The notes below the pieces were generated by a model, which saw only the letters and a program-made list of their open reading frames with translations, made no database searches and was not told where the DNA came from. Below, in pieces: positions 1-28,584 of a stretch of DNA of 28,657 bases; position 1 is the stretch's first letter; the number at the start of each line of letters is the position of its first letter. The stretch is from a virus, in IMG/VR virus record IMGVR_UViG_3300011114_000679, positions 1 through 28,657 of that record. One strand, given 5' to 3'. Position numbers and translations under genes: made by a program.

Positions 1-572
1 TGTGTCGACGCCACGCGGCGTTGGGGGGGGGTCAAAAGAGATGCCTTTACCCCCCTTTTCCCCACTTGTGCATCAAACGCGGTGGGCGTCAGCGTGTCCG
101 GTATGCCGGCAGACATGGCTCGGCGCTTGTCGATGTGGGCAAGCATGCCCTTGGCTTGTATGCTGATGGCTTGCTTGGTGACGCCGAAGAGCTTGCCGAT
201 CTCCTTGCCGTTAAGATGACCAGGGGCTCGCAGGATCAGGCGCATCAACTCCCAGTGCCGGCGCACCTTGGGGTCTCGCGTGTAGCCGAGCATCTGCACC
301 ACGTCGTTCACGATGCTGGCCACCTGCTCGCGAGAGATGAAGGCGTCCTGCTCAGTGCGGTCCTCGTTGGGGTTGTAAGCCCAAATCTCTGAGCGCTCAT
401 ACACAGGGAAGACGTAATCGTGAGACCGGGCTTCACAGTACGGTCCGGCGCCTTCCTCGCGTAACCGATCCTGCTGCGCCTTGGGCAACGCTTTGAACCA
501 GGCGTCGTAGCGCTTGGCATGTGCACGGTCTGCTTTGTCCGCGCTATGGTCGAAGCCGTTTAGTCCAGGCAT
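1..572 (-). CDS. Helix-turn-helix DNA-binding protein, runs off the window
   Basis: An ATG at 572 opens a frame that stays open to position 1, giving at least 190 residues. The N-terminal 110 residues are charged and unrecognised. Residues about 121-150 read NGKEIGKLFGVTKQAISIQA and onward, a clear helix-turn-helix of the sigma-region-4/LuxR-like type (KEIGKLFGVTKQAIS). The start overlaps the upstream gene's stop by 13 nt and has GAAGG a few bases before it. If the window edges are joined through the 12-bp repeat, the frame continues 21 codons and ends at TGA overlapping the terS ATG, for about 211 aa. It is probably a regulator, possibly of late genes. A packaging accessory role is possible because it sits directly before terS. 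Confidence 0.7.
   Translation of the reverse strand, partial: MPGLNGFDHSADKADRAHAKRYDAWFKALPKAQQDRLREEGAGPYCEARSHDYVFPVYERSEIWAYNPNEDRTEQDAFISREQVASIVNDVVQMLGYTRDPKVRRHWELMRLILRAPGHLNGKEIGKLFGVTKQAISIQAKGMLAHIDKRRAMSAGIPDTLTPTAFDAQVGKRGVKASLLTPPQRRVAST
2..13. repeat. 12-bp terminal direct repeat, left copy
   Basis: GTGTCGACGCCA lies here and again, identically, at the extreme right end (28646-28657). Position 1 is T, whereas the base before the right copy is A, so the match is exactly 12 bp. It could be a circular-assembly overlap or the trace of a 12-nt cohesive end, which is the length lambda uses. Joining the edges through it keeps the leftmost gene open up to the terS start. Confidence 0.7.
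26..55. other. G-run/C-run hairpin near the left end
   Basis: Six G (26-31) can pair with six C (50-55), and AAAG (35-38) with CTTT (45-48), giving a compact hairpin inside the 3' part of the leftmost gene. On the minus strand this stretch also reads CTTTTGACC followed by a C-run and CCAA, resembling the first half of the motif found before structural genes. It may belong to a cos/packaging region. No function is shown. Confidence 0.3.
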
Positions 573-5379: not shown

Positions 5380-5651
5380 TTGGTTCGGGTGGTTTGTTCG
5401 ATGACGACGCTACCAGAGACATACACGGCACGACCGGAGTCAGTCGTGAAGTAGTAGCCAGGGCCGAGCGGTACGGGAGTGTTCTTGGTAAACCATTCCC
5501 TGTCGAAAGTCCTATATTGAGTCGGTGGCATGTAATAGATGCGCCAGCAGGGTTCGCGGACTTCGGTCTGGCCGACGGAGGCGACGCGCTGGTCGCACCC
5601 AGATAGTCCACAGATGACGGCGCAAAGGATGGCTAAGGTGGGCTTGCTCAT
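5376..5651 (-). CDS. Small lipoprotein, 91 aa
   Basis: The N-terminus is a lipoprotein signal: MSKP, a hydrophobic stretch LAILCAVICG, then the lipobox LSGC with the acceptor Cys at residue 19, followed by DQ. Asp after the Cys favours inner-membrane retention in enterobacteria, but host rules may differ. The mature part (about 72 residues) is short and aromatic and looks beta-rich. It is coupled on both sides by ATGA overlaps within the early module and lies away from the lysis genes. A lipoprotein there could block superinfection, as known phage lipoproteins such as T5 Llp do. This is inference; I see no specific family. Confidence 0.65.
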   Translation of the reverse strand: MSKPTLAILCAVICGLSGCDQRVASVGQTEVREPCWRIYYMPPTQYRTFDREWFTKNTPVPLGPGYYFTTDSGRAVYVSGSVVIEQTTRTK

Positions 5652-16445: not shown

Positions 16446-16760
16446 TTAGGCGGTAACTTGGTCGACGACGGTGAGGCGGAAGGTGTCCGAAAAGAAGGTG
16501 GTGCCGCCGTAGACGAACTTGATGTCAGACCGGGCGGTGCCGAGCGAGAAGCCAGCAGTGGTCGACGCGGGGAGGCTGGCCACAAAGGAGAGCCCATTGC
16601 CGGCCATGGTGATCGTGCAGCTGTAGGTCGCCCCTGACGAGTCGATGATGTCCGAGGTCACCGTGGTGGTCAAAAGGTTGGCCGGGCCGCCAGCGGCGGG
16701 GGTGTAGGTGACCGTGCCCGAGTAGGTCGTGCCGCGCTTGAAGGTGACCGTGTTGCTCAT
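16446..16760 (-). CDS. Small beta-rich tail protein, 104 aa
   Basis: ATG 16760 is preceded by a copy of the structural-gene motif. The sequence is beta-rich and Thr/Ser-heavy (FKRGTTYSGTVTYTPAAGGP, SDIIDSSGATYSCTITMAG), ends with DTFRLTVVDQVTA and resembles Ig-like or baseplate-upper-protein folds. It directly precedes the fibre gene, so it is probably a fibre base or tail-tip component. No family is certain. Confidence 0.6.
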   Translation of the reverse strand: MSNTVTFKRGTTYSGTVTYTPAAGGPANLLTTTVTSDIIDSSGATYSCTITMAGNGLSFVASLPASTTAGFSLGTARSDIKFVYGGTTFFSDTFRLTVVDQVTA

Positions 16761-16784
16761 CTTAACCTTGGCGGGGGGTTAAAG
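16761..16784 (-). promoter_or_regulatory. Structural-gene motif, site D
   Basis: On the minus strand this reads CTTTAACC, 5 nt, CCAAGG, TTAAG, with the ATG of the 104-aa gene 5 nt after CCAAGG. It has one substitution and a shorter spacer compared with the consensus. The upstream gene's stop lies within the first half. Confidence 0.55.
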
Positions 16785-17594
16785 CGTGACCGTCGCGTCG
16801 GCCGTGTTCTTGGTGTACCCAGCCCAGCCACCAAACCAGAGGTCTTTCTCGGCCTCATAGTAGGGGTCCGCAATCCAGGGCGGGGTATAGCCTGAACTAT
16901 TCAACGCAGGGGTATTCATAACGCAGGCGTTTGGGAGGGCCAGCGGTCCGAGGTGCTGCTGGTCTACCTTGAAGACGCCGTCCTCCCATGTCAGGTCAGC
17001 AATCTTCCACTTCTGGCAGTTGTAGTTGTACGCGTAAACGGAAGGCGCGTTGATGATGGTAATGTACTCACTGCCAGCCGGCGTTAAAATCTCTAGAGGG
17101 TCGTTCTGATACGTCACCAGCTTGTAGTATACGTACATGTTGAAGCCACCGGGGAAGGGGTCGGTGTAGTTGTCAGCCTCAGACGCTATCTCAAAGACGG
17201 CCAAATAGGGCACGGGCGCGGCTTCATCATCAGCGCACATCACGATGAAAACGCCGTAGTGCTTGCTCTCTTCAATCTTGATGTAGCCACCCTTGTCGAC
17301 CCAAGGTGTGGAGGCCTCATCCGCGAAAGGGCCGTCGACCTGGGCGTCGTCTGGGTATGCCCAAACCTTCTGGACCTCGGCCTGAATGGGACTAGCCGCA
17401 TAGGGAGCGGTGGCAAAATACGAGAAGTAGCGCACGAACCCCTTGCGCACAAAGACGCCCCAATAGCCAGGTGCGACCTTACTGCAGTTAACCTTGAACT
17501 GGTCAGGATCAGACTGCTGCTCAGGGAAGTCGACCGTGAGGGAGGTGCCGTTCTGGCCCGCGCTCAGGCTGTAGCCGTTGCCGGGTTGCATCAT
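16779..17594 (-). CDS. Unrecognised tail protein, 271 aa
   Basis: The ATG at 17594 shares its A with the upstream TAA (TAATG), so the two genes are coupled. The protein is aromatic-rich (many Tyr, Trp and Phe) and looks beta-rich, with stretches such as GYWGVFVRKGFVRYFSYF and MYVYYKLVTYQNDPLEIL. I recognise no domain. Its place between the tape measure region and the fibre suggests a distal tail or baseplate component. The aromatic surface would suit saccharide binding, but that is speculation. Confidence 0.6.
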   Translation of the reverse strand: MMQPGNGYSLSAGQNGTSLTVDFPEQQSDPDQFKVNCSKVAPGYWGVFVRKGFVRYFSYFATAPYAASPIQAEVQKVWAYPDDAQVDGPFADEASTPWVDKGGYIKIEESKHYGVFIVMCADDEAAPVPYLAVFEIASEADNYTDPFPGGFNMYVYYKLVTYQNDPLEILTPAGSEYITIINAPSVYAYNYNCQKWKIADLTWEDGVFKVDQQHLGPLALPNACVMNTPALNSSGYTPPWIADPYYEAEKDLWFGGWAGYTKNTADATVTL

Positions 17595-18487
17595 TAGGTC
17601 CCTAAGAGGGGATAGACTTCCGGCACCCAGCCCTCAACCGAGTAGCGCAGGGTGTAGCTGATCTTGTAGATGTTCAGGCCGTAGTCCTCGAAGTTAACGG
17701 AAGCCAGGAGCAGTTGGCCACCGGCCTCGCCGTCATAGACCGTGCCCATGTAGTTGGGAACTAGGACGGGCAGGAACCCTTGGAAGGTCTGGTCAGTTGA
17801 CGAGAAGCCGACCGCCGACCGCATGGTCTGCACTAGCGTGTCCCCTTCTGGGTTGGCGTCGCCGCCCTTGACGTAGATGACGCCAGAGAAGCCAGTCGTT
17901 GGCGAGAGGTATGACTTGCGGCCGTAGTAGTATGGGAACTCCGGATCGAGGAAGCCGACGAACTTGCCACCCGTTACTTGGGTAAAGTGTGCGCCGTGGT
18001 CGCCTGCATAAAGCAAGGTTCCACTGGCATCTACTTTGAAAGTAGAAGCTTCATAGATGGGGGCCGTTACCGTGCCGGTGCCGTAGCCAGCGATAGCGTT
18101 GATGCTGTCGGTGTTAGTGAAAAAGTTGCGGTGCGTTTCGATTGGCTCGCTGCTGGTGGCCACGGCGCCTGAGACGTTGGGGGCGGTGACGGTGGGCTCG
18201 CCTTCACCGGGGGCCGTACCCGTATTGATGCCGACGTAGTCGATGGTCAGCGTGGCGATGCCGTTGCGATCGTACGAGGCCGAGCACCGATTGGACCACA
18301 TGAAGGCGTCGAAGGGAGCCACCGGGTGAGCAACGCCACGGTCAAACTCAGCGATGGCCACGGCGTAGTCACGGTCTAGCTTGAATGTACACTTGCCAGT
18401 CCATAGCCCGTAGCCGTCCTGGCCTACGGTCCAGCCTGCTTGGAGGACCGGGCTGGAGAGGTCGTTGCCTTTGTCGATGCGGGCCAT
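17594..18487 (-). CDS. Unrecognised distal-tail candidate, 297 aa
   Basis: It is the first gene after the tape measure gene, the slot of distal tail proteins in siphoviruses. The N-terminus (residues 1-100) is beta-rich (GLWTGKCTFKLDRDYAVAIA, ASYDRNGIATLTIDYVGI), as expected of a tail-tube-like collar. The middle holds Gly/Thr-rich loops and FVGFLDPEFPYYYGRKSYLS, and the end has SYTLRYSVEGWVPEVYPL. There is no clear similarity to lambda M/L or Dit. ATG 18487 comes two bases after the tape measure stop. Confidence 0.6.
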   Translation of the reverse strand: MARIDKGNDLSSPVLQAGWTVGQDGYGLWTGKCTFKLDRDYAVAIAEFDRGVAHPVAPFDAFMWSNRCSASYDRNGIATLTIDYVGINTGTAPGEGEPTVTAPNVSGAVATSSEPIETHRNFFTNTDSINAIAGYGTGTVTAPIYEASTFKVDASGTLLYAGDHGAHFTQVTGGKFVGFLDPEFPYYYGRKSYLSPTTGFSGVIYVKGGDANPEGDTLVQTMRSAVGFSSTDQTFQGFLPVLVPNYMGTVYDGEAGGQLLLASVNFEDYGLNIYKISYTLRYSVEGWVPEVYPLLGT

Positions 18488-18489
18488 GA

Positions 18490-19296
18490 TTAGGAGACGT
18501 TGGTGGTTTCGTAGTAGACGTTCTTAGAGGCGTTGCCGTTGCTGGTGTCCTTGGTAAAGTCAGTAGGCAAGCCGTTCGCGTTGGCGATGATGGCCAGGTA
18601 CTCGTTGGCCTGCTTCTGCAGCTCGACCTGCTGGTTGAGTAGGTTCATCTGCGGGGACAGGCCGACGCCGAAGGTCGAGTTATCGCCGGCGAAGAGGGAA
18701 GGCTCCTTCTTGTTCTTCTCATCTTGGGCTTTCTGTTGTTCAGCAGCTAGGGCTTTCTTGGCATCTTCTTCAGCCATTTTAAAAACTGCATCTTGAATGT
18801 CTTTATTAAATGCTAAGATTGCAGCACTTTCTTGTTTGCCACTTGCAAGGTCAACAGGTGCATTCTTTTTGTAATACTCTTGGCCGCGAGGATCGCGCAT
18901 GAGAAACTCACGCGTCACTGCGACCCTTGCATCTTTTGCATTTTCAATCTCTTCCTTGCTTCGGATGTCTACCTTAAGTTTCTGAGACAAATAGCGGGTT
19001 GTAAAATCAACGGGTGATTTGTTTAAATCTTCCAGCTTAACACTAGCCGCAAAATCTACCGCGTCCTTGGCGTGTTGCCGTGCATTTGAGATGGCGTCGC
19101 TGATGAAGCTGATGGCGTGCTGGATCAGGACCATAGGGGCGAGGAACGATAGAAACAGATCCTTACCAACCTCGCTGAACTTCTTGCCGATGGCTGCCGT
19201 CTGCTTGTCCATTTCAGACATGGCTTTCTTGGCCTTCTCGGTCTGCTGCGGGACATCGGAGGTGCCCTTGATGTTGTAGGTGACGTCCTGGCTCAT
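18490..19296 (-). CDS. Short tail tape measure protein, 268 aa
   Basis: The start resembles phage tape measures (TYNIKGTSDVPQQTEKAKKA then MSEMDKQTAAI), followed by one hydrophobic segment (FLSFLAPMVLIQHAISFISD, about residues 50-69) and long helices. At roughly 0.15 nm per residue, a 268-aa ruler would set a tail of about 40 nm, far shorter than lambda's. It follows a chaperone-like gene, as expected. Residues about 79-175 are encoded by unusually AT-rich DNA. If it is not the ruler, it could be an internal virion protein, because no longer candidate exists in the window. Confidence 0.65.
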   Translation of the reverse strand: MSQDVTYNIKGTSDVPQQTEKAKKAMSEMDKQTAAIGKKFSEVGKDLFLSFLAPMVLIQHAISFISDAISNARQHAKDAVDFAASVKLEDLNKSPVDFTTRYLSQKLKVDIRSKEEIENAKDARVAVTREFLMRDPRGQEYYKKNAPVDLASGKQESAAILAFNKDIQDAVFKMAEEDAKKALAAEQQKAQDEKNKKEPSLFAGDNSTFGVGLSPQMNLLNQQVELQKQANEYLAIIANANGLPTDFTKDTSNGNASKNVYYETTNVS

Positions 19297-19303
19297 GGTC
19301 TCT

Positions 19304-19843
19304 TCACTCTTGGGAAGTCGTAAAGGCCGCCATTGCCTCCTCTTCCTCAGTGGTCATGATGTTGACGTCCACCCCCTTCAGGCCGGCAAAGGCCGTGGAG
19401 AGCCAGACCGCCTGACATTCGGGCATCTCCCAAGCCCGGCGCTCCTCGATGCCGTTGGCAATCAGGTTGGCCACCATGTTGAGCGCCCAAGGCATGCCGA
19501 CGCCAGAGGCCCGCTGGCTCTCCGTCTTCTCCCAGAACTTAGGCCAGTGACCCTCGAGCATGTAGACGCGGAAGTCGGCCATGGTCTTGTAGAAGGTCTC
19601 AGGGTCCTTGTTCCAGCGCTTGAGGATTAACTTATCCTTGGCGGTGATGTCGTCGATAGGTGACTCGGCGCAGGTTTTGATGGCGGCTAGCATGGCGCCG
19701 GCGGTATACTCCCCAGGCTGGACAAAGGGCGAGCCGATCGCGTGAAGCCTAACGCGGTACTTCAGGCAAAAGGGATACACGACATAGCCCAGGATGTTAA
19801 CCTGGGCCGGGTCGGTGAAGGCGTTAATGAAGCGGGCGTCCAA
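19304..19843 (-). CDS. Tail assembly chaperone candidate, 179 aa
   Basis: The frame's usable start is TTG at 19843 with AGAGTAGGG just before it; no ATG fits nearby. The product is helical, with an acidic end (TTEEEEAMAAFTTSQE). It contains YPFCLKYRVRLHAIGSPF near the N-terminus and NMVANLIANGIEERRAW near the middle. Its slot between tube and tape measure genes is that of lambda gpG. The usual frameshifted extension (gpGT) is missing, because the tape measure ATG follows after only 7 nt and I see no slippery site. Confidence 0.6.
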   Translation of the reverse strand: MDARFINAFTDPAQVNILGYVVYPFCLKYRVRLHAIGSPFVQPGEYTAGAMLAAIKTCAESPIDDITAKDKLILKRWNKDPETFYKTMADFRVYMLEGHWPKFWEKTESQRASGVGMPWALNMVANLIANGIEERRAWEMPECQAVWLSTAFAGLKGVDVNIMTTEEEEAMAAFTTSQE

Positions 19844-19854
19844 GGCCCTACTCT

Positions 19855-20229
19855 TTACGCGTAGCTGGCGATGGCGTCAAGCTGCTTGACCTTGACCGTC
19901 ACCCGCACGAAGTCCTTGTTGCTACCCTTTTCCTCGACGGACTCCACCACGCCGGTGATGGACTGGGAAACGCCCACGTCAGTCTTGGTGGCGATGGTGC
20001 AAGGGTCCCCGACCTCGGGCATGTCCACCGTCTTGGCGATGCCTTCAATGCTGATCTCACGGCCAACGCCGTCGTAGCGGAGGGTCACCGTTACACCCGT
20101 CTCGTCGGCCGCCTTGTCGTTAAGCTCGAAGTTCTTAGTGACCGTCAGGGACTGGGGAAGGAAGTTGCTGATTCCGGACTGCGTAGCAACGCCGAACAGT
20201 ACCGTCACGCCTTTGAGAGTAGCTGCCAT
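19855..20229 (-). CDS. Tail tube protein candidate, 124 aa
   Basis: A small beta-rich protein with an alternating strand pattern (VTVLFGVATQSGISNFLP, VTVTLRYDGVGREISIEG, DFVRVTVKVKQLDAI). Position between the tail-completion gene and the chaperone is that of lambda V. It is shorter than most tube proteins. ATG 20229 is preceded by a copy of the structural-gene motif, consistent with high expression. Confidence 0.6.
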   Translation of the reverse strand: MAATLKGVTVLFGVATQSGISNFLPQSLTVTKNFELNDKAADETGVTVTLRYDGVGREISIEGIAKTVDMPEVGDPCTIATKTDVGVSQSITGVVESVEEKGSNKDFVRVTVKVKQLDAIASYA

Positions 20230-20232
20230 AGG

Positions 20233-20258
20233 TTCTTAACCTTGGGCCCTTGGTCAAG
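20233..20258 (-). promoter_or_regulatory. Structural-gene motif, site B
   Basis: The minus strand reads CCTTGACC, 6 nt, CCAAGG, TTAAGAA, with CCAAGG 10 nt before the ATG of the tube candidate. The upstream half overlaps the end of the tail-terminator gene. CCTTG and CAAGG also form a small inverted repeat here. Confidence 0.6.
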
Positions 20259-20691
20259 GGGCCAGCACACAAAGCACCGACAGGCGCAAGACGGTGGCCC
20301 ACGCCCCGGTCTGCTCGTCGAGGCCCTGATCCTCGGACTGCACGGTCACGTCATAGAGGGCCGCGTCGCCGTTGCTCGTAAACTGGGCGGCCATGGCGGT
20401 CACGTCGGCCAGAGCCCCGACCATCGCGGCGGCCTTATCCCGGTGCTCAGACAGGGTCACGTCGTTGGCGTTGTCGTGCAGGACGCAGCGCACTTGGCAG
20501 TCATAGTTGCCCAGGCCATCAGGTAGGCCACTGGGGGTGCCGGCGGAGTCGCAGACCACGACCACCTTGGGCATCGCCGAGTCGGCGGTGCTGTCGCCAG
20601 GGTAGATGTTAGTGCCCGTCAGGCCGACCTCAGCCTGGAGCATGGTGACGAGGTTTCCCTCGACGATGTGTCGGATAGATGCGGTGCCCAT
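20254..20691 (-). CDS. Tail terminator (gpU-like position), 145 aa
   Basis: It starts three bases after the upstream stop (CAATAACCCATG). The order is an N-terminal helix (ASIRHIVEGNLVTMLQAEVG), then strands typical of tail-completion proteins (PKVVVVCDSAG, CQVRCVLHDNA), a helix (SEHRDKAAAMVGALADVTA) and C-terminal strands (WATVLRLSVLCVLAP). This pattern suits lambda gpU or the tail-completion fold, which caps the tube at the head end. Evidence is fold-like pattern plus gene order. Confidence 0.6.
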   Translation of the reverse strand: MGTASIRHIVEGNLVTMLQAEVGLTGTNIYPGDSTADSAMPKVVVVCDSAGTPSGLPDGLGNYDCQVRCVLHDNANDVTLSEHRDKAAAMVGALADVTAMAAQFTSNGDAALYDVTVQSEDQGLDEQTGAWATVLRLSVLCVLAP

Positions 20692-20694
20692 GGG

Positions 20695-21669
20695 TTATTG
20701 TTTTTTGTTAAAGTTGTCGGCCGCCTTCTTGAGCCGTTGCTCAAGGTCTAGCCTGAGCTGCTTATAGCGTAAGCCTAAAACGGTATGCTTCACATCAGCC
20801 TCGGTGCTAACGTTGTTCAGGTCGGCGATGCCGTTGACTAACATGAGGGCCACGTTGCTTTGCGTGTCGGTGAAGGTGTAGTTGCCCGCCGTGCCGGCAT
20901 GGGCCTTGATGTAGTTACCGATGCCCGATGTGCCGAAGTTGGTCTTGTTCTCGCGGCTCGATGGCTTGGGCAGGGACATCAGGATTTTATACCAGCCTGA
21001 CTTGAGCTTCCCGACCATAGGGGTGCGGGTGTCGATGTAGGCCTGGATCTCGGCGTCGGTCTCGACCAGGACCTTGTTGCGCCAGTTGGTCAGTGGCTCC
21101 ATAGGTCGACCAAGCTTCTTAAATCGGCCACCAGATTTGGCTAAGAGGGTCTGGTGTAAGGGCTCAAGGTTACGCTGGAAGCCGAGGCCGTACGCGTTTG
21201 TCCGGAACTGGGACCGGTTGAAGTAGTTTTTTGCCTTACGGAAAGCCCGGTCGTCGTCGTAGTCGTTAGCGATAGCCTGCAGAATACGGGTGCCGCGCTT
21301 GAGCGCCGTGCGTCCGGCGCCGTCGAGCAAGTTGCGGAACTCAGACGGGTTGCCTGCTTTTGTCGCGTAGGCCAGCTGGGTGGTCAGCAAGATCAGCGGG
21401 GCGATGCCCTTGCGGTTGTCGGCCGCCGTGTAGATCTTGCGCACGTCCGCAGAGATAGCCCGCTTGCCAGCCTTCTCGCCTGTTACCGTCAGGCCTCCCT
21501 TTCTGCCGGCACCCATCGGCGGGGTCAGCATCATAGACTCTCGGCAGATAAGGGCGGCGTTCTTGAGGGCGATGTCGCGGATGGTCTCGTGGCAGGCAAA
21601 CGCGTACTCGGTCATAGCCTGGTTAAACTCGGCCAGACTCTTGGGGTCGAACTTGAGCGTAGCGCTCAC
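20695..21669 (-). CDS. Neck/minor tail protein candidate (gpZ position), 324 aa
   Basis: I choose GTG at 21669, which overlaps the previous stop as GTGA; the frame is open upstream but without support. The protein is large, basic and mostly helical (FNQAMTEYAFACHETIRDIA, RTALKRGTRILQAIANDY, and a C-terminal DLEQRLKKAADNFNKKQ). Its place between the head-tail joiner and the tail terminator is that of lambda gpZ or HK97 gp10-type neck proteins, and the N-terminal half has the same helical, basic character. Family not certain. Confidence 0.55.
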   Translation of the reverse strand: MSATLKFDPKSLAEFNQAMTEYAFACHETIRDIALKNAALICRESMMLTPPMGAGRKGGLTVTGEKAGKRAISADVRKIYTAADNRKGIAPLILLTTQLAYATKAGNPSEFRNLLDGAGRTALKRGTRILQAIANDYDDDRAFRKAKNYFNRSQFRTNAYGLGFQRNLEPLHQTLLAKSGGRFKKLGRPMEPLTNWRNKVLVETDAEIQAYIDTRTPMVGKLKSGWYKILMSLPKPSSRENKTNFGTSGIGNYIKAHAGTAGNYTFTDTQSNVALMLVNGIADLNNVSTEADVKHTVLGLRYKQLRLDLEQRLKKAADNFNKKQ

Positions 21670-22049
21670 TGGTTGAGCAGGATGACTTGCAGGGTCACCC
21701 ATGCGCTCGGGCGCTTGTGGGTCTGGGCAATGATGCGCAGGCTCTTACCATCAACGGCAATAAGTTTGCCAATCCCTAGGGAGGCAATGGGCTCCTGACT
21801 CACGACGATGGCAGCCGATGCCCCATTAGACCCGTCTGGGAGGCTCCAGGAGGCCGTTGCAGCGGGGATGCGGACCGTGTGCTGGGTCCGGTCTACAAAG
21901 CCCCCCTCTTGGAAGGACTGGCTGACCATCGGGTCCGAGATGAGGCACTGAAAGGTGATGGCCCCAGAGTTGCACGATCCAGACACGCCGAAGTCGTCGA
22001 CCATCAGCTTGGCGTCGTCGAGGAAGGTGCCGTCAGCGTAGAGGCTCAT
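21666..22049 (-). CDS. Head-tail joining protein candidate (gpFII position), 127 aa
   Basis: A beta-rich 127-aa protein of the size of lambda FII. Strands include AITFQCLISDPMVSQSF, HTVRIPAATASWSLPDG, and SLRIIAQTHKRPSAWVTLQV near the end. It is the first gene after the capsid terminator, and its ATG lies 7 nt after the CCAAGG of a motif copy. Its stop is coupled by GTGA to the next gene. Function is inferred from order and length. Confidence 0.6.
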   Translation of the reverse strand: MSLYADGTFLDDAKLMVDDFGVSGSCNSGAITFQCLISDPMVSQSFQEGGFVDRTQHTVRIPAATASWSLPDGSNGASAAIVVSQEPIASLGIGKLIAVDGKSLRIIAQTHKRPSAWVTLQVILLNQ

Positions 22050-22078
22050 GTCTTAACCTTGGGCACTAGGTCAAAAAA
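22050..22078 (-). promoter_or_regulatory. Structural-gene motif, site A
   Basis: The minus strand reads TTTTGACC, 6 nt, CCAAGG, TTAAGAC, ATG. The first half overlaps the U-tract of the capsid terminator. Transcription arriving from the capsid gene should mostly stop here, so expression of the tail genes needs a new start, which makes this site the best argument that the motif is a promoter. Confidence 0.6.
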
Positions 22079-22100
22079 AAGGGGCCCCGTAAGGAGCCCC
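22073..22100 (-). terminator. Rho-independent terminator after the capsid gene
   Basis: On the minus strand, GGGGCTCC-TTAC-GGGGCCCC forms an 8-bp stem with one mismatch and a 4-nt loop, followed directly by eight U. It lies 24 nt after the capsid stop. This is a textbook intrinsic terminator and the only strong one I find. Confidence 0.9.
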
Positions 22101-22123
22101 AGTGTTTTCTAAGCCGGTTAGGC

Positions 22124-22990
22124 TTAGGCGCTCTTGATGCGCTTCAGGTTCGAACGACCCTTCGCGGCGCCGAAACGGATGGCGGCCGTCAGATAGAGGA
22201 TACCAGCGGTGTACTCGGACTCGACCATCAGGGACAGGCCACCCATGGTGGACACAGCGGAGTTGGTGCCGATGGACCAGATGGAACCGGTGCCGATCGC
22301 GATGGCGTCCTTGGCGGCCGCAAAGCCGACGAGGTTTTCGCCGTTACCCGGCAGGCCAGCGTACTGCATGATCTGCAGGGTGCCGATGTTGCCGACGACG
22401 CCAGTGCGGACGACGCTGTTATTGCCCTGGGTGTTGAACGCCGAGGTCAGCTTGGCGTCCTTACGGAGCGCGCCGATGTAGGCGGAGTTGAGAACGAGAC
22501 CGCGCTGTTCCGGGGCGTAGAGGTCGTCGAGGAAGGTGTCGAGGTCGACCACGTCATTGTAGTCGAAGTCGCCAGAAGCGATGACCACGTTGCTCGAGTA
22601 GTTCGCGTTGGTGATGAGGGCGGCCACGGCGGCGTTGGCCTTCTTCACGATCTTAGCCTGGACTTCTTCGCGGAAAGCATTGATGACGCCTTCCGGGCCC
22701 CAAGAGGCGAGCTCCTGCGCGTCGAAGCTGCGGGTCGCGTGGTAGTGGACGAGCTCGACCGAGGCCTTGGTGATGTCAGCGTTGCCGACTTCATGGTAGC
22801 CGCCAGCCGCCTTGTCGAAGACGATAGCGTCGTCGCCGGCCACGAAGGGCACGTCGATTTGGATGCCGCGGTCATCGCGGGACTGCGCGAGCGTCGTGAA
22901 GACGTCGAGCATGGGGAGTTTGGGGCGGACGTCCGCGACGATGATGTCAGCGAGCGCGGCCGGAGCGATGTCGAAACCAGAATTAGCCAT
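22124..22990 (-). CDS. Major capsid protein, 288 aa
   Basis: The place (after protease and scaffold candidate, before head-tail joiners), size and composition fit a HK97-fold capsid subunit. Visible are an N-terminal helix (APAALADIIVADVRPKLPML), an E-loop-like segment (IVFDKAAGGYHEVGNADI), a long spine-like helix (VINAFREEVQAKIVKKANAA), and a P-domain/A-domain alternation ending in GILYLTAAIRFGAAKGRS. Under 300 aa, it is compact. The ATG at 22990 has an AT-rich leader without a clear Shine-Dalgarno site. A terminator directly downstream would confine a high-level transcript to this gene and those before it. Confidence 0.8.
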   Translation of the reverse strand: MANSGFDIAPAALADIIVADVRPKLPMLDVFTTLAQSRDDRGIQIDVPFVAGDDAIVFDKAAGGYHEVGNADITKASVELVHYHATRSFDAQELASWGPEGVINAFREEVQAKIVKKANAAVAALITNANYSSNVVIASGDFDYNDVVDLDTFLDDLYAPEQRGLVLNSAYIGALRKDAKLTSAFNTQGNNSVVRTGVVGNIGTLQIMQYAGLPGNGENLVGFAAAKDAIAIGTGSIWSIGTNSAVSTMGGLSLMVESEYTAGILYLTAAIRFGAAKGRSNLKRIKSA

Positions 22991-23028
22991 GGTGATGTAT
23001 TAGTATTTAGGGATGAATTAGGGGGAAA

Positions 23029-23457
23029 TTACTTGAGACGGCCAAAGAGGATGGCGGTCTTGTGCTTCTGCAGGAAGGCGTGACGCTCAGCGCTGGGCTG
23101 CATCGCGGCATACTCCTCGCGGATCTGCTGGACCGTCAAGGCCGGGGCAGAGGTCGCAGTCTCGGCGGCGACGGGGGTCGTGCCGGTGCTGGCCACGATC
23201 TCGGCGGCCTGCTTGGCGGCGGAGACATGGGTGGCTTCGAGGGCGGTCACCTTCTCGGTGAGAGCCGTGACTTCGGCAGTGAGCTCAGCGATGCGGGTAT
23301 CCTTGGCAACGACGTCGGCCTTGGCGGAAGTGAGCTCGTCGGCGGCGCCAACGGTCAGCTTCTCGACGGTCGCACGGAGGTCGTCGCGCTCGGCGGTCAA
23401 CGCCAGGGAAACGGTGCGCAGCTCGGTGACTTCAGCTTCAGGGGTCAGTTTGCTCAT
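23029..23457 (-). CDS. Coiled-coil scaffold candidate, 142 aa
   Basis: Residues 5-90 are almost uninterrupted heptads (LTAERDDLRATVEKLTVG, IAELTAEVTALTEKVTALEA), followed by a Thr/Ala-rich linker and a C-terminal helix with basic end (HAFLQKHKTAILFGRLK). A long coiled coil with a basic C-terminal hook, coded between protease and capsid genes, is the usual design of scaffolding proteins, whose end binds the capsid. In lambda, scaffold Nu3 is nested in the protease gene; here it is separate. A head decoration protein is a less likely alternative. Confidence 0.7.
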   Translation of the reverse strand: MSKLTPEAEVTELRTVSLALTAERDDLRATVEKLTVGAADELTSAKADVVAKDTRIAELTAEVTALTEKVTALEATHVSAAKQAAEIVASTGTTPVAAETATSAPALTVQQIREEYAAMQPSAERHAFLQKHKTAILFGRLK

Positions 23458-23461
23458 GATG

Positions 23462-23488
23462 TTCTTAAACTTGGAGATGCGGTCAAAG
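23462..23488 (-). promoter_or_regulatory. Structural-gene motif, site C
   Basis: The minus strand reads CTTTGACC, 6 nt, CCAAGT, TTAAGAA, with CCAAGT 11 nt before the scaffold ATG. It lies entirely between the protease stop and the scaffold start, so no coding constraint explains it. Confidence 0.6.
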
Positions 23489-23489
23489 G

Positions 23490-24284
23490 TTAGAAGGCGG
23501 CGAGGGCTTCCTCAAAGGAGTCGGCCAGCCCGGTGACAAGGCCCAAGCTCACTGCTTCACGGCCAGAGAAAGTGCCGCCGGTGAAGGCGTCCTTGGAGAC
23601 ATTGGCGCGGGTCATCTTCACTGCAGTCTGGAACTCTTCAGCGATAGAGTCGACCTGCCGCTGTAGGTCCGCAACCTGCTCAGGCGTTAAGCTGGTCCCC
23701 TCGATGCCAGCCCCCTTCAGGGGAGATTGGCTAGACTTGATGACCACCATCTTCACGCCGGCGTCGGCGTAGGCCTGGCTGTAATCGGGCACGACCATGT
23801 AAACACCTACCGAGCCAATCGAGCCGGAGGGCATAGCGACAAACCGATCTGCGGCGGTGGCCAGCCACAGGGCGGCGCTGTTTGCTTCTTCACCGTAGGC
23901 CATGGTGGGCTTCTTCATTCGGCGCATCTTGCTCGCGAGCTCAGGCACACCAGTGACGGTGCCGCCAGGGGAGTTAACGCGGAAGGCAATCTTCTTGACC
24001 GCAGGGTCAGCCTCGAAGGCGTCGATGGCTTTGGAGATGTCGTTGACGTCAGCGGCGCCAAGCATGCCCTCGAGGGGCGAGATGCCGCGACCGATTGGGC
24101 CATCAATCGGGATGACCCCCTTGCCGTCAGCGGTGACGTAGGCCACCGGGCGAGCGCCGAGCAGCTTGGAAAGAACGTCGCTGAAGCCGTACTTGTCCAG
24201 GCGGGCGGCGTAGTCAGCGGCCTTGGTCGGGTCGATAAGCAAAGGCTCAAGGCCTTTCATGCCGTTGGAGAAGATGAAGCGCAT
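23490..24284 (-). CDS. S49-family head maturation protease
   Basis: This 264-aa protein is a ClpP-fold S49 peptidase like lambda gpC. It has FRVNSPGGTVTGVPEL (about residues 101-116), the nucleophile Ser136 in GEEANSAALWLATAADRF, GSIGSVGVYMVVPDYSQA, and the likely general base Lys190 in SPLKGAG. It trims scaffold and other head proteins during procapsid maturation. ATG 24284 follows the portal stop by 6 nt. Unlike lambda gpC, it has no C-terminal scaffold extension; a separate coiled-coil gene follows. Both catalytic residues appear intact. Confidence 0.85.
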   Translation of the reverse strand: MRFIFSNGMKGLEPLLIDPTKAADYAARLDKYGFSDVLSKLLGARPVAYVTADGKGVIPIDGPIGRGISPLEGMLGAADVNDISKAIDAFEADPAVKKIAFRVNSPGGTVTGVPELASKMRRMKKPTMAYGEEANSAALWLATAADRFVAMPSGSIGSVGVYMVVPDYSQAYADAGVKMVVIKSSQSPLKGAGIEGTSLTPEQVADLQRQVDSIAEEFQTAVKMTRANVSKDAFTGGTFSGREAVSLGLVTGLADSFEEALAAF

Positions 24285-24290
24285 GGGAAG

Positions 24291-25850
24291 TTATTCGGTG
24301 ATGTCGTTGGTGTTGTCCTCGGGGACCGCTGAAGTGTCTTTCTCGACAGGGTCCTCGGCGGTGTCCTCGGCGTCGTCGGCCATGGTTGCCTCGGCTTCCT
24401 TGGCTGGGGCCTGCATGTTCTGGAAGCGTTGCATGGCCTCCTCGAAGGCCACCTTGCCGCCAGTCATGGCCGTGGCTTCCTTGGCGAACAGGATGTCGTT
24501 TACTAATTCAGTGAAAGTCTTGCGGAAGTCCACGCCACGCTTCTTGGCAATCGCCGAGAAAGAGGTCAGGCCAGCTCGTAGGTCTTCGCGGTCGTTGTTG
24601 CTGTCGCGGCCGTTGTCGATGCTGGGGGACTGGGGGACGCTGAACTCGACGTCGGCCCACTTCGGATCGTCAGGCAAGTCGCCGTTAGCGATGCCGGTGC
24701 CGATGCGCCATTGCCAATCGGGCACTAGGTAGCAATCGTGGAGCATGCACTGCTTATCGCCGACGTAGCGGTCGGCCTTGCCGAGTACCATGCGTACCAG
24801 GGCAGAGCCGGCCTTGCTGCCGTCGTTGACCACCTCATAGGGCAGGCCACCAGACGCGATCATGCGCGAGAGCACGGCATTGAACATCTCCATGCTCTGC
24901 CGGGGGAAGTTAGGGGACACGCTCTTGAGGTCCTCACCAGGCTCGAGCACCAGCAGCTTGCCGCCCATCTGGGCACCGATGGCGCCAAAGTCAGACGTGC
25001 CGGAGCCGTTAAGCTCGGCCGCCATGCTGTCGTTAATTGAGCCGCCGTTCTTGGTAAGAATGGTCGGGACGTCCGTCACCTGTTTAGTCGCCCGGAGCTC
25101 CAGCTGCATCACCTCGAGCTGGTCCTGCATGCTGTTGAGGGCGTGGGCCATCGGAGGCAGACCGTGCGCGCCGCTAGCCCGCTTGAAGTCGGCGATGTGA
25201 AAATAAGTGCCGGCCTCCTTAAACTCAAATTGGCCGTCGCCGAACTGGATCCAAATGCCTTTGACCTCGCCGTACTTGCCAAAGACAAAGCCGTCCCAAG
25301 TCTCAGGCGTGACCTGGTTGGGCGTGGTAGGGCTGACCACCCGGTGGCCCTCGATGATTTGCACGGTAGCCTTGCCTTGAGCGTCAATCACTTTGAGCGC
25401 GTAGACTTCGCCGTCGACCGCCCAAGTGTTGATGATGATGCGCTGGAGTTGCTCGCCCGTGTAGCGATTGGTGGCATCCGCTTTGCGCGTCTCGCGGTAG
25501 TAGTATGCCTCGTAGAGTCGGGCTTTCACCGGGTCGAGCGCGTGGCTCGTCGGAAGTGAACCGTCGCCGACTACGTACATGACCATGTCGTTCACGTACT
25601 GCACCATGCTCGGATAGTTTTTCTCGGCGTAGCGGGCCTTCTGTAGCAGGGACTGGCGGTCGTACTGGCTGACGTCCTTGCGGGCGTCCTGCGGGGCCGA
25701 TCCATACCAGGCACGACGGGCAAAGGACATCCCAGCGTTCTGGAAGTTGCTGGACCAAGACGTCGAGGCCTGCGCCTTGGGAGCACCGGTAGACCCAGCC
25801 GTAGGCTTGGGAACTTCGACGGCCTTGATGGTCTTCTTGCGGGGTGCCAT
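24291..25850 (-). CDS. Portal protein, lambda gpB-like
   Basis: This 519-aa protein matches the lambda-type portal family by size, by neighbours and by segments such as SFARRAWYGSAPQDARKDVS (about residues 43-62), VQYVNDMVMYVVGDG (80-94), a helical stem region with LEVMQLELRATKQVTDVPTI, and the FNAVLSRMIASGGLPYEVV helix near the crown. Portals form the 12-subunit ring that motors DNA into the head. The last 70 residues are acidic and low in complexity. ATG 25850 follows the gpW-like stop by 3 nt. Confidence 0.85.
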   Translation of the reverse strand: MAPRKKTIKAVEVPKPTAGSTGAPKAQASTSWSSNFQNAGMSFARRAWYGSAPQDARKDVSQYDRQSLLQKARYAEKNYPSMVQYVNDMVMYVVGDGSLPTSHALDPVKARLYEAYYYRETRKADATNRYTGEQLQRIIINTWAVDGEVYALKVIDAQGKATVQIIEGHRVVSPTTPNQVTPETWDGFVFGKYGEVKGIWIQFGDGQFEFKEAGTYFHIADFKRASGAHGLPPMAHALNSMQDQLEVMQLELRATKQVTDVPTILTKNGGSINDSMAAELNGSGTSDFGAIGAQMGGKLLVLEPGEDLKSVSPNFPRQSMEMFNAVLSRMIASGGLPYEVVNDGSKAGSALVRMVLGKADRYVGDKQCMLHDCYLVPDWQWRIGTGIANGDLPDDPKWADVEFSVPQSPSIDNGRDSNNDREDLRAGLTSFSAIAKKRGVDFRKTFTELVNDILFAKEATAMTGGKVAFEEAMQRFQNMQAPAKEAEATMADDAEDTAEDPVEKDTSAVPEDNTNDITE

Positions 25851-25853
25851 AAA

Positions 25854-26114
25854 TCAAAAGGTCCGGCTGTCCCATCGGACAGACAAGACAGACGTCCGGC
25901 GGTATACCGCGTAGGCTTGACTATCGAGCTGGTACAGCGCGTAGCCGGCCTCGTCGAGCATCTCCTTGGGCGGAAGCGCCCACTGCTTGCTAACGCTCGA
26001 CCCGCTGTCGGAATAGGACACGACATTCAGCCCGGTAGTGATGGCCGCAACAGCCTTGTCGCGGATGGCCAGCAATTCGGTTTCAGTGAGTCCAATAAGT
26101 AAGCCGCGAGCCAT
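25854..26114 (-). CDS. gpW-like head-tail joining protein, 86 aa
   Basis: A small, mostly helical protein between terminase and portal genes, as in lambda (A-W-B). It opens with a helix (TETELLAIRDKAVAAITTG), then a short beta hairpin region (NVVSYSDSGSSVSKQWALPP) and a second helix (KEMLDEAGYALYQLDSQAYA), which is the gpW pattern. It would plug the portal after packaging. A motif copy precedes it. Confidence 0.75.
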   Translation of the reverse strand: MARGLLIGLTETELLAIRDKAVAAITTGLNVVSYSDSGSSVSKQWALPPKEMLDEAGYALYQLDSQAYAVYRRTSVLSVRWDSRTF

Positions 26115-26120
26115 AGTGGG

Positions 26121-26146
26121 TTCTTAACCTTGGGAGGGGGGTAAAG
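26121..26146 (-). promoter_or_regulatory. Structural-gene motif, site E
   Basis: The minus strand reads CTTTACC (one base short of the consensus half), 6 nt, CCAAGG, TTAAGAA, with CCAAGG 13 nt before the gpW-like ATG. It lies in a 143-bp gap after terL, the longest gap in the structural region, which otherwise holds no gene I accept. Confidence 0.6.
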
Positions 26147-26257: not shown

Positions 26258-28051
26258 TCAAGCGTCCAAGGGCACCGGGTCAGCGGCGCCTTCCCTCCCG
26301 ACGATGCCCCAGCGCACAGCCGCCAGCATGGCCAGAAGCTCGCAGTCCAGGGCGTGGTTATCCTTCTTGCCCGCCGGCAGGATCCACTGAGGCTTGCCCG
26401 TGCGGGAGTCGCGGACCCGGACCTCGGCGTTCATCTGCTCCACGTAGTCGGCCACCGTGTCGCGGGCGTAGGTGTGCACCTTGCGGACCCGTAGGCCTGA
26501 CAGCAGGTCCTTGCCGGCGAGGTTTGACCAGACGATGAGCCGGGCTCGGTTGGTCTGCCCTGGTACAACGTAGCTCTGGATGTCCGAGTAGAAGCGTTTG
26601 CTCGTCTGCCCGTTCGTACCCTTCACCGTGAAGTCATCCTGCCCGGAGCCCTTCGCACACTTCCAGCTGCGCTTGGCCGTCTCGGCGTAGACCACTTGGG
26701 CGTTGTCCCCTGCATCGACTAAAACGAGCGCACGGTGGACCCCATGGAGTTTGGCAAAGTCCTCGACCGCCTGCCACGTCTCGAGACGGGCAAAGGCCTT
26801 GAGCCGACTATGCCCGGTCTTGCTCCAGCTGCGGACCGTCGCCCAGAAGTGGCCGCGCTGACAGTCCACGCCCATCGTGCGGAAAGGCGTCGACCCTTGT
26901 GGGGCGTCCTTCTGGTCGGCCAGCGTGGCCTTGGGCGTGATCATAGCCTCGGCCTCCCAGGCGTCCGCAAGCCCGTAGTCGCTCGCGGTGGCCGCCGTAA
27001 CCATCGACCCGCCGTCGTCTGACCAGGGCAGGGCAAGGTACTTTTGTTTAAAGATGCGGCGCTGGTCCTCGTCTCCATAGGTGTCGCTGGCCTCCTTGGC
27101 CTTGAGCATGTCGACCCCTAGGGAGCCCCAGCTCGTTGAGGCCAACGCATTGACGTGCAGGCCGACCCAGCCGCGCTTCTGGCTCACGGTCGTCGGGACA
27201 AACTCGCCGGCATCGTTGCACCTGATCCGCGTCTCGTTGGTGTCGGGTAACCGAGCCGCACACTTGGCGCACTCATACGTCGTGCCGTCCTCAACCTTCC
27301 GATGGTCCCAGCCTGAGTCGGTCTTCGCGTCGTCAGGGAAGCGCACGTAATCCCATAGCCAGGGCTGCAGGTGGTCGCAGGCCGAGCATCGGAACTGCCA
27401 TTCGCGCTGGTCGGTCGTGCCGTACAGGTTCGCAAAGTCATCGCCCACCAGACCAGGCTGGCTCGCGTAGAGTTTCTTGCTCGTCCACTCGTAGGCCTTG
27501 GTTCTGGCCATCGATTCCTGCAAACTTCCTTTCGGCCACTGCCAAAGCTCATCTCCGAAAACGTACCGCGTTGAGATGCGCTGCAGGTCCTTGTGCGTCG
27601 TGGCCGAGTTATTGTAAACGATGGTGCCGTCGCTGAAGTCGATGGTGTCGCTCTTAGCATTGTCGTGCGGGCTCATCGCGTCTCTCACCACCGGCACGAT
27701 GTTGAACAGCGGCCGCAGGTAACGCAGGGTGAAGTCCTTTGCGTTGTCCTGGTTGTCCATGTAGATGACCAGGTTGCCGCGATCGTTGGCCATCAGGTGC
27801 GTGGCCAGCAGCCGCATCGTTAGCGTCTTGCCGCATTGGATAGCCCAAGGCATAGCCAGCAGCCGCGTCGAGGGCTCAGCGAAGATGCGGATGGCGTGAG
27901 CAATCCACGGCCAGCGCTCGGGACGGTAGCCGCCCTTGAAGGGCGAGTCGGGGATGTTGGTAACGTTGCGGGCCAGCCAGGTCACCGGGTCGGCGTTGTC
28001 CGGTGGCGCCAAGGCCTTGCGCCCGACGGCCAGCAGCTCCTCGGTCTTCAC
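26258..28051 (-). CDS. Terminase large subunit, GpA family
   Basis: The start is GTG 28051, overlapping the terS stop as GTGA; a TTG further up (28084) is weaker. The 597-aa product has the GpA-type ATPase with a variant Walker A, AIQCGKTL (residues 70-77), Walker B VFGDE (164-168), a zinc-ribbon-like insert with Cys222/Cys225 and Cys261/Cys264, and an RNase H-like nuclease with Asp396 (GVDCQRG), Asp446 (VLVDAGDN) and a late Asp (NHALDCELL). It cuts the concatemer and drives DNA into the head. Known members of this family are mainly cos cutters, in keeping with the 12-base identity of the window ends. Confidence 0.9.
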   Translation of the reverse strand: MKTEELLAVGRKALAPPDNADPVTWLARNVTNIPDSPFKGGYRPERWPWIAHAIRIFAEPSTRLLAMPWAIQCGKTLTMRLLATHLMANDRGNLVIYMDNQDNAKDFTLRYLRPLFNIVPVVRDAMSPHDNAKSDTIDFSDGTIVYNNSATTHKDLQRISTRYVFGDELWQWPKGSLQESMARTKAYEWTSKKLYASQPGLVGDDFANLYGTTDQREWQFRCSACDHLQPWLWDYVRFPDDAKTDSGWDHRKVEDGTTYECAKCAARLPDTNETRIRCNDAGEFVPTTVSQKRGWVGLHVNALASTSWGSLGVDMLKAKEASDTYGDEDQRRIFKQKYLALPWSDDGGSMVTAATASDYGLADAWEAEAMITPKATLADQKDAPQGSTPFRTMGVDCQRGHFWATVRSWSKTGHSRLKAFARLETWQAVEDFAKLHGVHRALVLVDAGDNAQVVYAETAKRSWKCAKGSGQDDFTVKGTNGQTSKRFYSDIQSYVVPGQTNRARLIVWSNLAGKDLLSGLRVRKVHTYARDTVADYVEQMNAEVRVRDSRTGKPQWILPAGKKDNHALDCELLAMLAAVRWGIVGREGAADPVPLDA

Positions 28052-28584
28052 TTGCTCAGGTCCTCTCGCGTCTTGCGTACCCAAGCCTGCAAAGCCTCGA
28101 TTGCCTTGGGCGGGTCGTTCGGGTTGCAGGCCTCACCAATCTCGGCAGGCATCTTGTCCAGCCGTGCCACCACTTCGCCCACGATCCGGAGCATAGCCTC
28201 CTGCGCGTCGCTCGCCTTGATGTAGTCGCGGGCCAGCAGTGCCCGGCGCTCCTGCTCCTCCTCCAGATTGATAAGCGTCTTAAGGCTCTGGTTGTACGCG
28301 GTCTGGTACTTCCCCTGGTTGGGGTCGCCCATTTCCATCGCGGCCTCCCAGACGCCACGCGCCCGACCGACCAGACCACGGTGCTCGTCGATGGTGTCGG
28401 CCAGTGAGCCGTCATCTAGCTCGACCACCTTGGGCTTCGGTGCCCCCTGCCGGCGAGCCGCCTGCTTTTCCTCACGCCAAGCGCGCGCGGCCTCGACGCT
28501 TGAGTCGGGCATGCCGTCTTTGATCAGGATGCTGACGCGTTGAGCAGTCACGCCCAGGGCTGAGGCCAAATCTTTAAGCTTCAT
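28048..28584 (-). CDS. Terminase small subunit, Nu1-like
   Basis: The N-terminus of this 178-aa protein is a MerR/Nu1-type winged helix (LKDLASALGVTAQRVSILIK, then DGMP), which in lambda gpNu1 binds the cos region. A basic linker (REEKQAARRQGAPKPK) leads to a helical oligomerisation and TerL-binding part. ATG 28584 lies in an AT-rich leader with no Shine-Dalgarno site; upstream translation across the edge join would end here in ATGA. Directly upstream is a strong inverted repeat that may be its binding site. Confidence 0.8.
   Translation of the reverse strand: MKLKDLASALGVTAQRVSILIKDGMPDSSVEAARAWREEKQAARRQGAPKPKVVELDDGSLADTIDEHRGLVGRARGVWEAAMEMGDPNQGKYQTAYNQSLKTLINLEEEQERRALLARDYIKASDAQEAMLRIVGEVVARLDKMPAEIGEACNPNDPPKAIEALQAWVRKTREDLSK

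Follow-up and report, generated by a model that had tools for sequence, protein, structure and literature searches.

What is a short two-part sequence doing when it stands repeatedly in front of the structural genes of a phage? The window, by which we mean the whole 28,657-nt stretch analysed (IMG/VR record IMGVR_UViG_3300011114_000679, positions 1 to 28,657), is a tailed-phage genome encoding a lambda-type terminase, portal, protease and major capsid protein (MCP) together with an Erf-like annealing protein, an exonuclease and a primase-helicase. An earlier note on this DNA had described the motif directly before five structural genes and suggested a promoter, a late-activator site or an RNA-processing signal, with the helix-turn-helix (HTH) protein encoded at the left end as its candidate reader. 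The motif consists of box 1, a spacer of 5 or 6 nt and box 2, and in the window lineage it is worded TTKACC-N5/6-CCAAGGTTAAGA. From sequence comparison, we put at roughly 55% the probability that these sites are compact, lineage-specific late promoters that give near-leaderless mRNAs and have a phage factor as their reader, the HTH protein being the probable candidate.

The five sites can all be found on the minus strand, shifted by no more than one base from the positions in the earlier note (Table 1), and its distances from the motif to the ATG (13, 11, 7, 10 and 5 nt) are exact. Box 2 is a perfect CCAAGGTTAAGA in four sites and CCAAGTTTAAGA in the remaining one. We built a two-box matrix from 88 sites of related genomes, leaving out the window and its 98% relative, and scanned both strands of the window. 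The five sites scored 33.7-37.0 bits, the next best place reached 7.3, and the best score over 100 genome-size Markov-1 shuffles was 13.5 bits. Equally good matches scattered inside genes, which would have counted against the proposal, were absent from the window's genes, and the scan returned only late-gene sites, with none before early genes. With up to 2 mismatches, CCAAGGTTAAGA occurred 9 times against 1.07 expected, while CTTTGACC alone was a weak signal (38 versus 20 expected). The 1.53 Mb of fetched DNA held 96 distinct sites of at least 18 bits, all but 3 preceding the starts of late genes or of an inserted HNH gene; the 3 exceptions lie in unrelated or host contigs. The conserved motif is confined to regions upstream of late genes, as is the case for phage sigma-factor late promoters, and both the scan and this placement argue for a late-gene-specific promoter or late-activator site. 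A half-site proposed at 20-38 did not hold up as a motif copy, being part of the HTH coding sequence (SFDPP in relatives) that reads across the contig ends.

Table 1. Motif sites and associated features of the window.
Feature	Sequence	Position	Strand	Matrix score (bits)	Context
Late motif 1	TTTACC-N6-CCAAGGTTAAGA	26122..26145	-	35.6	7 nt before ATG of gpW-like gene 25854-26114; conserved in relatives
Late motif 2	TTGACC-N6-CCAAGTTTAAGA	23463..23486	-	35.5	Before scaffold-like gene 23029-23457; CCAAGTTT or CCAAGATT kept at this site in relatives
Late motif 3	TTGACC-N6-CCAAGGTTAAGA	22051..22074	-	37.0	Before head-tail joiner gene 21666-22049; box 1 overlaps terminator T-run
Late motif 4	TTGACC-N6-CCAAGGTTAAGA	20234..20257	-	37.0	Before tube gene 19855-20229; TGA within motif is stop codon of preceding gene
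Late motif 5	TTAACC-N5-CCAAGGTTAAGA	16760..16782	-	33.7	Before gene 16446-16760; final A of motif is A of ATG
Degenerate late motif 6	TTTACG-N5-CCAAGAGTGAAGA	~19301..19324	-		Before gene 18490-19296
Intrinsic terminator	8-bp stem, T8	22073..22100	-		After MCP gene; runs straight into motif 3
MCP gene		22124..22990	-		Between motif 2 and terminator; no motif of its own
HTH gene	MPGLNGFDHSADK...GKLFGVTKQAISIQAKGML...	1..572	-		Spans contig ends to just before terS; candidate motif reader
Terminase small subunit gene (terS)		28048..28584	-		Next gene after HTH gene once contig is closed

We then compared upstream regions gene by gene, using profile-defined orthologues, across about 150 related contigs collected by terminase and motif searches. 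About 60 related IMG/VR contigs carry a motif before the same genes, namely the gpW-like, scaffold, joiner and tube genes and the orthologues of 18490 and 16446. The frame TTD-N9/10-CAR precedes these six in 84-96% of cases, and the portal, protease, MCP, 20695, 17594 and 16779 genes in 0-6%. Intermediate values were found for 19304 (16%), 20254 (30%) and terS (52%), many of the terS cases being a different word, TTTTGACCAAAACAGCAAACG. At the position of gene 18490, where the window copy is degenerate, relatives such as L042, L071 and L072 have a good one (TTTACG..CCAAGGTTGAGA). What the lineages share is the frame TTG-N10-CAR, placed some 19-33 nt ahead of the start codon.

Within a genome the wording of the motif is uniform, and it differs by lineage: GTTGCCAANNNGGGCAAAGATAT in L118, GTTGCCAATNNCCGCARGATTAAG in L126 and L152, CTTGACGNNNGGGGCAACTGTAGAGAA in L140, GTTGCC..CCGCAGATTT in L106, GTTGCC..TGCAAAAC in L030 and CTTACC-N7-CAATAGTAT in L027. 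In L026 and L115 there is no clear box 1 and at most a box 2. Motif-gene upstream regions shared a longest word of 12.1 nt, compared with 7.6 nt upstream of other genes (p=3e-11). This combination of uniformity within genomes and lineage-specific wording is what would be expected if one trans-acting factor reads the sites. Insertions between the HTH gene and terS, HNH homing-endonuclease-like genes at L017:346-1011 and L104:858-1532, carry the motif of their own lineage, so that the motif behaves as a self-contained expression signal would.

Where might transcription begin? The intrinsic terminator behind the MCP gene is the only one in the late block, and an equivalent hairpin with T-run lies between the MCP and joiner genes in 80/80 relatives. 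Only some 20-34 nt separate its T-run from the start codon of the joiner gene, and the motif fills this gap; barring a leaky terminator, transcription could restart independently only from within the motif. Sigma-70-like promoters were not in excess in the late block (2 found versus 3.1 expected), and the motif does not show the pattern TTGACA-N16-18-TATAAT, with no -10-like hexamer 17 bp from TTGACC. In the shortest arrangements, AAG-ATG at gene 16446 and GATAT-ATG in L118, any transcript starting from the motif would be leaderless or nearly so. We therefore propose a model, on the strength of these comparisons, in which every late transcription unit would open with its own copy of the motif, acting as a late promoter: gpW-portal-protease, scaffold-MCP, the joiner and the next genes, the tube gene, the 18490 block and the 16446 block. 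The two boxes, TTKACC for box 1 (with TTG in most lineages) and CCAAGGTTAAGA for box 2 (with a CAR core), start about 12-13 bp from each other; a phage-encoded factor would bind them as DNA and direct host RNA polymerase. Transcription would start at or just before the ATG, and the resulting leaderless or near-leaderless mRNAs would suit a host with few Shine-Dalgarno sequences.

The likeliest reader, acting by itself or together with a partner, would be the HTH protein whose gene immediately precedes terS. The HTH gene stands directly upstream of terS at 23 loci, in nearly all lineages from which the region was recovered, and the homologues end right before terS. Measured against the window, L065 (terminase 54%, portal 40%, MCP 34%) is as distant as L152 and L119; it has the window's motif and an HTH protein 64% identical to that of the window, while the HTH proteins of L152 and L119 stand at 32-33%. 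In a partial Mantel test over 18 genomes, HTH divergence correlated with motif divergence given terminase (r=0.63, permutation p=0.0005); the value for the neighbour terS was 0.03. Its position before terS and a divergence that tracks the motif thus support the left-end protein as candidate reader, and we infer that it binds the sites. If reader and motif do co-diversify, the L032 lineage, whose HTH helix is TKQAISVRAKKIL, should carry a window-like CCAAGG motif.

The protein itself gives few clues to its family. Pfam MarR_2 fell below the cut-off, and Sigma70_r4 was weak and limited to 2 of 20 homologues. The AlphaFold model (pLDDT 67) is usable mainly for its helical parts; with it, sigma factors led the Foldseek list at an E of only ~1, and VIA-align gave a best Z of 4.8 to homeodomain-type HTH folds and a Z of ~4 to sigma region 4, which is not decisive. 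The predicted fold is HTH-like, with no firm link to the sigma family. We found no match to RinA/ArpU models in NCBIfam, Pfam or PHROG, no relative among solved structures searched by sequence, and no match for either the HTH protein or the MCP among GenBank phages. Close upstream of the HTH gene, at 863-1207 and at the same place in several relatives, lies a gene for a second small basic protein, possibly winged-helix, which is another candidate regulator.

Several observations weigh against promoters read by the HTH protein. Few independent lineages, chiefly L065, underlie the correlation between HTH and motif, and the tube and gpW-like proteins of L065 are also relatively close to those of the window (63-64%). 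L030 has the motif and no HTH match in its 25-kb fragment, where another small open reading frame (ORF) stands before terS; conversely, L026 keeps the HTH gene although L026 and L115 are without a clear box 1. No known regulator matches the HTH protein with confidence, and a phage factor would be unneeded if the host of each lineage has its own sigma factor. The MCP gene, whose product is presumably more abundant than any other, lacks its own site. Finally, with a start near the ATG, box 2 would fall around -10 and box 1 between about -20 and -23, an arrangement unlike any standard promoter class. Only tentatively do we consider that this could be an undescribed compact promoter type whose boxes lie around -22 and around -10 of a leaderless start, and whose small HTH reader, not recognisable as a sigma factor, co-diversifies with them into a private late-gene code for each lineage.

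The motif could instead act once transcribed, as an RNA element that is cleaved, or to which a protein of phage or host binds, so as to coordinate translation or processing of structural mRNAs. Its constant presence some 19-33 nt from a start codon, its ability to sit in the coding end of the preceding gene and the possible TTAACC/GGTTAA pairing in the window lineage would all suit such a role. The pairing between boxes is however no better than with shuffled partners and is lost in other lineages; as an RNA hairpin it was rejected, with no covariation and no counterpart in other lineages, and no covarying helix of the kind that marks structured RNA was found. The distance to the ATG varies by at least 13 nt, Rfam gives no match, the presumably best expressed gene, that of the MCP, lacks the motif, and the joiner site comes directly after a terminator, so we regard an RNA element as unlikely, if still worth considering. 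A little less probable in our view is an operator: a dimeric regulator, activator or repressor, would recognise the boxes as a TTG-N10-CAA dyad and control promoters separate from them. TTG and CAA are indeed inverted triplets, extended to TTGCC..GGCAA in lineages of the L118/L142 type, and in the Verrucomicrobia phage P8625 the sigma-70-like promoters overlap a true dyad. Yet the conserved tail GGTTAAGA is asymmetric, no other promoter-like sequence was found near the sites, and there is little room for a separate promoter between the terminator and the joiner ATG.

Late promoters of the phage could also be read by a borrowed host alternative sigma factor, the lineage differences then reflecting different hosts. 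This would account for the lack of a confident phage sigma factor, and hosts do differ between lineages in principle. On the other hand, one Opitutae bin contains two phage lineages with different motifs (L092/L175 and L166/L167); bins can be mixed, and should both infect the same host, motif specificity could not come from a host factor. The Opitutae bin has few near matches to the window motif (8 at no more than 3 mismatches), the best one lying in phage sequence, and the HTH gene tracks the motif; altogether we hold a host factor to be improbable. Least of all do we expect an ordinary ribosome-binding or Shine-Dalgarno-like sequence, an explanation to which we give very little weight. AAGG could pair with the 16S tail, but AAGT/AAGA takes its place at the scaffold site, other lineages read CAAAGATAT, CAGATTT or CAATAGTAT, and AAGG stands up to 15 nt from the ATG. 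An anti-Shine-Dalgarno complement at a fixed distance from the start codon is not what the sites show, in line with the earlier note. The window's genes, those without the motif included, show no evident Shine-Dalgarno sequence, and some Verrucomicrobia are reported to be Shine-Dalgarno-scarce (PMC10783764).

How do compact late promoters read by a phage protein compare with known systems? Phage sigma-factor late promoters (T4 gp55; phiEco32 and 7-11; PMC4331800) share with the window a short, lineage-specific motif repeated before late genes and absent before early ones, in phages without their own RNA polymerase. The 7-11 motif is a single -10-like element, TGTGATGTTATA (PMC4331800), whereas the window has two boxes right next to the start codon and encodes no protein that can be recognised as a sigma factor. 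The position of the HTH gene recalls the RinA/Ltr/ArpU late regulators of Gram-positive phages, which activate one promoter for one long late transcript via sites at about -107 to -42 (PMC13123087). The window instead has five to six separate sites that abut start codons, with no sequence similarity to that family, and these sites together with the internal terminator suggest that a single late transcript of this type is perhaps not what is made. T7-type promoters are likewise about 23-24 bp long and repeated before late genes, with the start in or at the end of the motif; here the central 6 bp are free, and a T7-type promoter was rejected since the near-complete 28.6-kb genome has no single-subunit RNA polymerase gene, its only ORFs above 600 aa being those of the terminase, the primase and a tail protein. 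In the P2/P4 system, too, several late promoters of one phage are under one small phage protein. That protein, Ogr, is a zinc-finger protein that binds TGT-N12-ACA near -55, whereas the site here abuts the ATG and the candidate is an HTH protein.

A similar gene set is found in P8625 (NC_029047; L091), a cultured phage of a Puniceicoccales host from the same phylum, which also has repeated promoter-like elements at fixed ATG spacing before late genes. At 5412, 10736, 15558 and 22406 it has TTGACA exactly 36 nt before the ATG with sigma-70-like -10 spacing, the geometry of leaderless sigma-70 promoters, and 3 of the 4 elements overlap a GTATCCA-N5-TGGATAC-type dyad. Its elements differ from those of the window in being sigma-70-like, with TTGACA at -36 and the GTATCCA..TGGATAC dyad, and no HTH homologue was found in P8625.

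Such a late-gene switch would belong to a widespread, uncultivated group of Verrucomicrobia (Opitutae-type) phages. From its dozens of natural promoter and regulator variants one could learn how specificity shifts jointly in a small DNA-binding protein and in the promoters it reads. The suggested leaderless late mRNAs would occur in a Shine-Dalgarno-poor phylum whose transcription and translation starts are little known, and the motif would delimit late transcription units in metagenomic phages. Bacterial contigs encoding terminase relatives all belong to Verrucomicrobiota. They include an Opitutae bin in which there is a relative of 28 kb as well as a fragment that belongs to the window's lineage and carries the tube-site motif; in 79 genomes of the bin's family, an HTH profile search hit only one bin, which contains the phage contigs. 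Megablast returned no close GenBank phage record, terminase relatives among GenBank phages reach only ~24% identity, and Rfam and tRNA searches of the window found nothing. The contig ends (1-13 and 28646-28657) have a common 12-nt GTGTCGACGCCA and the HTH frame runs on across the junction; the contig, though classed as linear, is thus probably a complete, circularly closed genome of ~28.6 kb.

Other conserved upstream sequences stand apart from the motif. The MCP start has a C/A-rich leader of 30-40 nt (22991-23028 in the window, and in relatives) that is conserved and motif-free. Upstream of the terS ATG in L126, L130, L142, L152 and their relatives we found a conserved TTTTGACCAAAACAGCAAACGGGGGAACTCCAGCACTCGGCC, which fits the TTG-N10-CAA frame with a different tail and an ATG farther away. 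Before the 19304-19843 orthologue in L111, L126, L130, L142 and L152, the element TTGACW-N15-TAGTCT/TAGACT abuts the GTG start and encloses a C-run/G-run hairpin; it is possibly another leaderless promoter or a small operator.

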